The notes beneath the pieces are model-generated. The model had not been told where the DNA came from. It searched no databases and saw only the letters and a program-made list of their open reading frames with translations. Below, piece by piece: positions 7,533 to 19,148 of a stretch of 34,669 nucleotides of DNA. Within the stretch, counting starts at the first letter, position 1. Every line of letters starts with the position of its first letter. Source of the stretch: Meiothermus sp. (GTDB taxonomy: Bacteria > Deinococcota > Deinococci > Deinococcales > Thermaceae); the NCBI RefSeq assembly GCF_025060375.1, contig NZ_JANXCG010000064.1, positions 1 through 34,669 of the forward strand, read 5' to 3'. The position numbers and the translations under genes were made by a program.

Positions 7533-9875
<2,343 letters not shown>

Positions 9876-17725: not shown

Positions 17726-17754
17726 TTGACCCAAGAGGCCGCGCCCCGTAAGAT
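17726..17754 (+). promoter_or_regulatory. Strong aspS promoter
   Basis: TTGACC (17726-17731) and TAAGAT (17749-17754) are separated by exactly 17 nt; each matches five (-35) or four (-10) of six sigma-A consensus bases. The start of transcription is predicted near 17761, giving a leader of about 115 nt before aspS. Confidence 0.85.
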
Positions 17755-17760
17755 GCGGAG

Positions 17761-17876
17761 CGGGATGCTGCGGACGTGCAACGATCGCTAAAGGTGGGGG
17801 TAACCAGAGGCCCCCGATACCGCGTTGTATCGGGGGTTTTCCCTTAGAGGCTACGTCCGCGCCCGTAGGAGTCCGC
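17761..17876 (+). promoter_or_regulatory. Structured aspS leader with mutually exclusive hairpins
   Basis: The ~116-nt leader can form several competing structures: a GGGGG/CCCCC antiterminator (17796-17800 with 17811-17815) against the terminator at 17811-17836; a long-range 8-bp pairing of GCGGACGT (17770-17777) with ACGTCCGC (17853-17860); the same 5' segment with GTCCGC touching the start codon (17871-17876); and a CTACG/CGTAG hairpin (17851-17855 with 17864-17868) that covers part of the TAGGAG ribosome site (17866-17871). This looks like a regulatory switch acting on transcription and perhaps translation. It matches no riboswitch class I recognise. Confidence 0.6.
17811..17840 (+). terminator. 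Intrinsic terminator in the aspS leader
   Basis: A perfect 10-bp stem (17811-17820 with 17827-17836), loop CGCGTT, is followed by TTTT at 17837-17840. It lies about 50 nt downstream of the predicted start and 36 nt upstream of aspS, so it should act as an attenuator. Confidence 0.88.
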
Positions 17877-19148
17877 ATGTGTAGAGTCCTGGCCCGCGAG
17901 GTTTCCTCTCACGTTGGGAAAACCGTCTGTCTGCAGGGTTTTTTGCACTGGAAGCGCGACCTGGGTGGCATCCGCTTCGTCCTCCTGCGCGACCGCAGCG
18001 GGGTGGTGCAGGTGGTGGTGGACCGGCGCTTTGAGCTGCCCCTGGCCGAGTCCTCAATGAGGGTGGTGGGACGGGTGGTAGAAAACCCCAAAGCGCCGGG
18101 GGGCTACGAGGTGGTGGCGGAAGAGCTGGAATTTTACGCCAAGGCGGTTGAGCCCAGCCCCATCGAGATTCCCAAGGAGGAGTGGCGGGCCAGCCCCGAA
18201 GCCCTGCTGGAGTACCGCTACGTGAGCCTGCGAGGGGAAAAGGCAAGGGCCCCCCTCAAGCTGCAGGCGGCCTTGGTGCGGGGCTTCCGCAGCTACTTGG
18301 ACGCCCAGGGTTTTACCGAAATCTTCACCCCCAAAATTGTCTCGGCAGGGGCCGAGGGGGGGAGCAACCTCTTCGGCGTGGACTACTTTGAGCGCCGGGC
18401 CTACCTGGCCCAGTCGCCCCAGCTGTACAAGCAGATCATGGTGGGGGTTTTCGAGCGGGTCTATGAGGTGGCCCCGGTCTTCCGAGCCGAGCAGCACGCC
18501 ACCAGCCGCCACCTAAACGAGTACCTTTCCCTGGACGTGGAGATGGGTTTCATCCGCTCGGAGGAGGACGTGATGGCCCTGGAGGAGGAGCTTCTGCGGG
18601 CCATGCTCGAGGAGGCCCGAAGCTCGGCTGGGTTTGAGGCCAGGCTGCTCGAGGTGGAGTGGCCCAACACCCAGGAGATGCCCCGCCTAGAGCACAAGGA
18701 GGCCCGCCGCATCCTGCGGGAGGAGCTTGGCCTGCCGGTGGGGGCGGATCTGAACGAGGAGGCCGAGCGGGCCTTGGGGGCCTGGGCCAAGGAGCGGTGG
18801 GGGGTGGATTTCCTCTTCGTCACCAAGTACCCCGAGTCGGCCCGGCCCTTCTACGCCTACCCCGAGGGGGATGGCTTGACCCGGGGCTTTGACCTGCTGT
18901 TCAGGGGGTTGGAGATTACCTCTGGTGGGCAGCGCATCCATCAGCACGAGGTCCTGGTGGAGCAGCTCAGGAGGAAAGGGCACGACCCGGCGCAGTTTGC
19001 CGGCTACCTGGAGGTCTTCAAGTACGGCATGCCTCCCCACGGCGGCTTCGCCATCGGGGCCGAGCGGCTTACCCAGAAGCTGGCGGGCCTGCCCAACGTG
19101 CGCTACGCCCGGGCCTTCCCCCGCGACCGCCACCGGCTCACTCCGTAG
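17877..19148 (+). CDS. aspS: Archaeal-type, probably non-discriminating aspartyl-tRNA synthetase
   Basis: 423 residues, the short archaeal/eukaryal type that lacks the ~150-residue bacterial GAD insertion and closely resembles Thermus AspRS2. An N-terminal OB-fold anticodon domain (~1-100, FLHWKRDLGGIRFVLLRDRSGVVQVV) precedes the class II core: motif 1 FTEIFTPKIV, the AEGGSNLFGVDYF and AQSPQLYKQ segments, motif 2 APVFRAEQHATSRHLNEY, and motif 3 HGGFAIGAERLTQKL. Thermus AspRS2 is non-discriminating: it makes Asp-tRNA-Asp and Asp-tRNA-Asn, the latter amidated by GatCAB. Non-discrimination here is inferred from similarity. The start follows TAGGAG by 5 nt. The gene has its own promoter and attenuator-like leader. 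Its last 11 bp overlap the opposing small gene at 19138. Confidence 0.95.
   Translation: MCRVLAREVSSHVGKTVCLQGFLHWKRDLGGIRFVLLRDRSGVVQVVVDRRFELPLAESSMRVVGRVVENPKAPGGYEVVAEELEFYAKAVEPSPIEIPKEEWRASPEALLEYRYVSLRGEKARAPLKLQAALVRGFRSYLDAQGFTEIFTPKIVSAGAEGGSNLFGVDYFERRAYLAQSPQLYKQIMVGVFERVYEVAPVFRAEQHATSRHLNEYLSLDVEMGFIRSEEDVMALEEELLRAMLEEARSSAGFEARLLEVEWPNTQEMPRLEHKEARRILREELGLPVGADLNEEAERALGAWAKERWGVDFLFVTKYPESARPFYAYPEGDGLTRGFDLLFRGLEITSGGQRIHQHEVLVEQLRRKGHDPAQFAGYLEVFKYGMPPHGGFAIGAERLTQKLAGLPNVRYARAFPRDRHRLTP

Follow-up and report, generated by a model that had tools for sequence, protein, structure and literature searches.

The leader of the aspS2 gene in a Meiothermus sp. genome is very probably a ribosome-mediated transcription attenuator that senses how fully tRNA-Asn is charged and, in most species other than those of Thermus, senses tRNA-Asp charging as well. 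It was analyzed within a window of 34,669 nucleotides (contig NZ_JANXCG010000064.1; the whole stretch of DNA under analysis), and all leader features described below lie on the plus strand. The leader is built around a short ORF (17765 to 17791) that a sequence-only reading of this DNA had overlooked, and translation of this mini-ORF probably decides whether RNA polymerase stops before aspS2 or reads on. The parts of the device, their conservation, the frame specificity of the codons, covariation of the antiterminator strands in Trueperaceae and a fitting geometry were all observed. The arrangement is kept in almost every relative examined among the Thermus-Meiothermus-Truepera bacteria.

The aspS2 gene (17877 to 19148, plus strand) encodes a 423-aa protein that was identified as an archaeal-type non-discriminating aspartate--tRNA(Asn) ligase by matches to the NF003483 (554 bits; cut-off, 353) and TIGR00458 (389 bits; cut-off, 368) profiles; its closest public counterpart was from Meiothermus luteus (97%). 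An enzyme of this type loads both tRNA-Asp and tRNA-Asn, and in Thermus thermophilus and Deinococcus radiodurans a second AspRS acts with GatCAB to produce asparagine on tRNA-Asn (PMC4206432). Since Thermus and Deinococcus make asparagine by way of AspRS2 and GatCAB, the proposed attenuation would amount to end-product control of asparagine synthesis. An AsnRS-like relative (37% identity) was detected on contig C89 of the same genome, together with further class II relatives; among these, a 727-codon frame on C32 is probably the bacterial AspRS. Both assignments are our own. The gatA, gatB and gatC genes were located at three separate genome sites. About 8 kb from aspS2, the minus strand of the window (7533 to 9875) encodes a protein that resembles glutaminyl-tRNA synthetase and carries a GatB/YqeY domain at its C terminus (Pfam matches to tRNA-synt_1c and GatB_Yqey). 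Within this genome, no leader of the aspS2 kind was seen by eye before the asnS-like and aspS1-like genes, and none was apparent before gatA, gatB or gatC.

The near-consensus promoter claimed in the sequence-only reading was confirmed. This promoter, TTGACC and TAAGAT separated by 17 nt (17726 to 17754), matches 9 of 12 consensus positions and was found once where 0.2 occurrences were expected. Relatives were examined in a sample comprising the window and 90 aspS2-upstream regions of the same order (L177 being M. luteus), and leaders were sought as TTGA[CA], a spacer of 16 to 19 nt, TANNNT and, within a short distance, a start codon. In 87 of the 91 loci the pattern was kept, with TTGAC[N]-N17/18-TANNNT preceding the leader ORF. 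The -10 hexamer ends 7 to 11 nt before the ATG across loci (10 nt in the window), so that the mini-ORF can be preceded by only a few untranslated bases. A second in-frame ATG at 17753 overlaps the -10 box and is therefore unlikely to be transcribed. The same genome has many promoters that directly adjoin a start codon, with TTGAC-N16..19-TANNNT-N6..12-ATG occurring at 26 sites compared to 2 for the reversed pattern. Judged by sequence only, the position of the promoter directly upstream of the ORF and terminator is consistent with one shared transcript.

The near-leaderless mini-ORF encodes MLRTCNDR in eight codons followed by a stop (ATG CTG CGG ACG TGC AAC GAT CGC TAA). Its regulatory codons, a single AAC (Asn) and a single GAT (Asp) at 17780 to 17785, are directly 5' of the last sense codon and correspond to the identities of both tRNAs charged by the aspS2 enzyme; such a match between regulatory codons and target pathway is a defining property of leader-peptide attenuators. 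The short ORF was detected automatically in 87 of the 91 loci (window included), with Asn present in 86 of these leader peptides and an adjacent Asn/Asp codon pair in 78. Inspection by eye revealed remnants or a variant in three of the other four loci: L148 and L154 are truncated at contig ends and have Asn/Asp codons in the remainder (GACGACGATAAT and GACGATAAT), and L153 has a promoter variant with a leader reading MRAARNFNDNNDRLRAA before its stop. The sole locus among the 91 in which no leader could be recognized by eye before aspS2 was L170. At L159, the promoter was kept and the Asn/Asp pair was lost from a degenerate leader peptide (MILRLPFNPLQRPAKLLLR). Examples of the peptides are MLRADDNL in Meiothermus, MLRRRDDNP in Calidithermus, MRPRLLNNG and MRLPQGNDA in Thermus, MRGLLNNDR in family f4, MKCFFNNSADDDN in f3 and MNAFPRFDDDNLGCRLGA in Trueperaceae. 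Asp was absent from 17 of 26 Thermus leader peptides, and hence Asn is the common denominator. A search of plasmid records yielded no Deinococcus relative.

Conservation of the mini-ORF was frame specific. Among 71 distinct peptides (875 residues), Asn and Asp made up 23.8% of residues in frame and 23.4% when ORFs were picked blind to these residues; the two shifted frames gave 1.1% and 2.1%. Every one of the 133 runs of successive [AG]AY codons was in the ATG frame, with a density of 40 per kb compared to 1.6 per kb upstream. Selection on the decoded residue predicts the use of both synonymous codons for each residue, and the leaders contained 58 AAC, 78 AAT, 81 GAC and 32 GAT codons. Conservation in relatives had been named beforehand as the check that could refute a leader switch, and the outcome of this comparison favors the switch.

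A stable hairpin was present between the leader ORF and aspS2 in 86 of 87 loci. In the window, this terminator (17811 to 17840) consists of a 10-bp stem, CCCCCGATAC/GTATCGGGGG (17811 to 17820 and 17827 to 17836), a CGCGTT loop and TTTT. The sequence-only reading had described a perfect intrinsic terminator, and the perfect stem was confirmed, but its U-tract is just TTTT followed by CCC and the terminator was consequently unlisted by a terminator scan. The fold of the whole leader had a z score of only -1.45 relative to shuffles, so that stability is no evidence in itself. T-runs with medians of 5.5 to 7 followed the hairpins of Meiothermus, Calidithermus, f4, f3 and Trueperaceae. The Thermus hairpins (L105 to L132) were very strong (median, -28.9 kcal/mol), were followed by a median of 2 T and were located 18 to 27 nt before the start codon. 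Although strong, these hairpins have no U-tract, so that termination may differ in Thermus or control may have shifted to the level of translation. These properties favor an explanation in which the same ORF and alternative hairpins act mainly through translation initiation or RNA stability, at least in Thermus. The T-runs of the other five groups argue against this explanation, as does the location of the aspS2 ribosome site of the window (AGGAG; 17867 to 17871) outside the terminator hairpin, and we consider it improbable. A small hairpin that had been proposed to cover this ribosome site was not upheld, its fold being no better than those of shuffles (z = +0.83).

Folding and strand tests identified an antiterminator whose 5' strand, TGGGGGT (17795 to 17801), is directly 3' of the leader stop codon. 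The shared strand GCCCCCG (17810 to 17816) pairs either with this strand or with the terminator at 17831 to 17836, and thus the G-tract competes for the C-tract at 17811 to 17815. In this respect, the sequence-only reading was correct both about a competing antiterminator and about a terminator/antiterminator switch before an AspRS gene. In Thermaceae, the regulatory codons are 1 to 3 codons 5' of the stop, and 2 to 6 nt separate the first stop-codon base from the start of the G-tract. In Trueperaceae, most regulatory codons are shifted five to ten codons toward the 5' end, and the final codons before the stop (LGA and stop) encode the G-strand, CTCGGGG. In both layouts, a ribosome that has reached the stop codon covers the G-strand, which is free when the ribosome is at the Asn codon.

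The consequences of ribosome position were examined by folding. In the window, the RNA free before the terminator 3' arm had a folding energy of -14.0 kcal/mol when the A site held AAC, compared to -2.0 kcal/mol when it held the stop codon, and a gain of >4 kcal/mol between the stop and stalled states was detected in 87 of 87 loci. Upstream capture of the terminator 5' strand had a mean probability of 0.78 in the stalled state versus 0.19 at the stop. Under a strict on/off criterion, 57 of 86 loci switched, compared to 23% of composition-preserving shuffles. The antiterminator and terminator are mutually exclusive and the antiterminator 5' strand is covered at the stop codon, as in attenuators; the result for the window is sensitive to the assumed footprint, with the on/off difference requiring a boundary of ∼13 nt and the antiterminator forming at the stop too when this is 2 nt less. 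The completed terminator beats the antiterminator at equilibrium in most species (in the window, P is 0.96 in both states). A thermodynamic switch is thereby ruled out and the switch must be kinetic, with the antiterminator acting by forming first. A protector (1:2) hairpin of the trp type was not found in the window and the antiterminator still formed in a ribosome-free model (probability, 0.63 in the window; mean, 0.77), so that read-through is predicted for a leader that is not translated. The antiterminator strands of Trueperaceae co-vary (swap test, p = 0.0026, with no correction for shared ancestry), as exemplified by TTGGGGT/ACCCCAA in L155, CTTCGGG/CCCGAAG in L156 and CCCGGGG/CCCCGGG in L164. 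The equivalent test in Thermaceae (p = 0.36) was uninformative because the G- and C-tracts are invariant.

We propose that RNA polymerase starts a few bases 5' of the mini-ORF, which would be translated at once. With Asn-tRNA(Asn) or Asp-tRNA(Asp) in short supply, the ribosome would stall with AAC or GAT in the A site, leaving the G-tract free to capture the emerging C-tract; the resulting antiterminator would permit read-through into aspS2. When both aminoacyl-tRNAs are plentiful, the ribosome would reach the stop codon and cover the G-tract, the C-tract would pair with the next G-tract and transcription would terminate. Comparative sequence analysis and folding are the basis on which we infer that the mini-ORF is translated, that ribosomes stall, that transcription terminates and which way the system responds.

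A second, long-range helix was indicated by swap tests. TGCGGACGTG, inside the leader ORF (17769 to 17778), can form 10 contiguous pairs, G.U counted, with TACGTCCGCG, between the terminator and the ribosome site (17852 to 17861). The sequence-only reading had suggested that a GCGGAC segment pairs either after the terminator or beside the start codon. The former pairing was supported, as the helix was found again, in altered sequence, in Meiothermus (ACGGGCGG/CCGCCCGT, GCTGTGGCTGG/CCGGCCGCAGC and TGGACGG/CCGTCCA) and Calidithermus (GCCGTTGG/CCAGCGGC), but the GTCCGC alternative by the start codon, although present in the window, was absent by eye from the nearest relative, L177. Equivalent helices were also found in part of f4 (TGGGCCCG/CGGGCCCA and TGGGGCCG/CGGCCCCA). 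Swap tests gave p values of ∼0.001 each in Meiothermus, Calidithermus and f4, with no correction for shared ancestry, and just 7 of 14, 2 of 6 and 4 of 10 loci, respectively, beat their own shuffles. A gapped-duplex version of the test was weaker (p = 0.046 in Meiothermus), and the helix was unsupported in Thermus (p = 0.16). This helix can form only in read-through RNA, where we suggest that it shuts off further translation of the leader or shields the aspS2 mRNA at its 5' end. The near-leaderless ORF, the missing protector hairpin and the long-range helix are unusual features and might make the leader a variant. It is conceivable, though rather doubtful, that they constitute a distinct layout, in which a near-leaderless mini-ORF is combined with a three-strand switch that lacks a protector hairpin and reads through by default if untranslated, and with a second, co-varying helix that is confined to read-through RNA and has one of the two roles suggested above.

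Control by a protein, perhaps AspRS itself, or by a small molecule had also been put forward from the sequence. Autoregulation of synthetase genes occurs in other systems, a precedent that holds nothing specific to the aspS2 leader. Binding of AspRS, aspartate or asparagine to the leader RNA, with the ORF being incidental, is very unlikely: the conserved element is the mini-ORF with its Asn/Asp codons, conservation across clades is of a coding pattern and strand complementarity rather than of a pocket-like sequence, no Rfam match was obtained and an incidental ORF would not hold Asn/Asp codons in frame. No T-box, riboswitch or other Rfam cis-element was detected at the gathering threshold, and relaxed matches were at chance level. 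An even smaller probability attaches to direct binding of uncharged tRNA-Asn by a T-box, whether intact or degenerate. Rfam T-boxes (RF00230) do precede eight aspS2 orthologues from other phyla (seven Clostridia-type loci and one from Anaerolineae), and GGTGGGGGTAACC in the window, with what we take to be a faint resemblance to a T-box motif, could be a remnant. However, no RF00230 match was found in the window leader, even at a relaxed threshold, GGTGGGGGTAACC is not conserved in relatives and just ∼45 nt separate the likely transcription start from the antiterminator. The sequence-only reading had rightly set a T-box aside; its view that the leader fits nothing known was not sustained, as the arrangement is that of classical ribosome-mediated attenuation by a conserved Asn/Asp mini-ORF, and its suggestion of control by tRNA holds only indirectly, through a ribosome reading the Asn/Asp codons. 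A chance ORF before a terminator that acts constitutively and does no more than reduce aspS2 expression can be dismissed, for although a single 8-codon ORF in one sequence is weak evidence, frame-specific conservation across several families already contradicts this explanation.

The same genome holds further attenuator candidates before asd, trpB and ilvB. The leader before asd, the aspartate-semialdehyde dehydrogenase gene, encodes MVWYTTTP with three Thr codons, is followed by a hairpin with a T-run (C14:90050-90399; L183, L203) and looks like a threonine attenuator. The trpB gene is preceded by MRPRTPRGYKWHHQRWWRG, with three Trp codons (C74:2890-4300; L196, L205), and ilvB (acetolactate synthase) by the Leu/Val/Ile-rich MLFAYLSLAVVGLVIIRPAGDTV and a hairpin (C14:37300-39103; L182, L204). 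These units share with the aspS2 leader the promoter-to-ATG layout, a pathway-fitting short ORF and a hairpin with a T-run before the gene but involve other amino acids. The fit between codons and pathway was less clear for a short ORF and hairpin of the same layout before thrS (C76:19320-19666; L198, L207), for MQAHRGKPGQTRSFGYSYWPAVPVGLA and a hairpin before another gene (C76:6990-7333; L197, L206) and for short ORFs with hairpins before leuC (C93:7440-7781; L202, L208) and a homocitrate-synthase-like gene (C11:11083-11440; L179, L209).

No attenuator of aspS2, nor one of aspS or one with Asn/Asp codons, was described in the open-access literature (subscription journals were mostly outside this search). 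If correct, our interpretation provides a regulatory mechanism for the tRNA-dependent asparagine pathway (AspRS2 and GatCAB) of Thermus-type bacteria, in which the cell gauges scarcity of Asn-tRNA directly by the ribosome. In Clostridium acetobutylicum, a tRNA-Asn-sensing two-codon T-box controls the transamidation operon (Saad et al. 2013, described in PMC4052509). The clostridial T-box leaders share with the aspS2 leader the gene or pathway, the tRNA-Asn charging signal and a terminator/antiterminator output; they are, however, 200 to 300 nt long and bind tRNA directly, whereas the codons of the aspS2 leader would be read by a ribosome. Two unrelated RNA devices thus appear to have converged on one signal and target. 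Leader-peptide attenuators of synthetase genes include that of pheST in gamma-proteobacteria and the trpS and leuS candidates in Streptomyces (PMC1262725). Like these, the aspS2 leader has a short ORF with cognate codons near its stop, a terminator, a mutually exclusive antiterminator and a synthetase target. It differs in lacking a detectable protector hairpin, in its extra long-range helix, in its phylum, in having Asn/Asp codons matched to a non-discriminating AspRS and in its near-leaderless ORF, an indication that near-leaderless mini-ORFs can support attenuation by leader peptides. The proposed mechanism itself is classical; the regulatory codon pair, the target gene and the lineage are new, and the distribution is lineage-wide.
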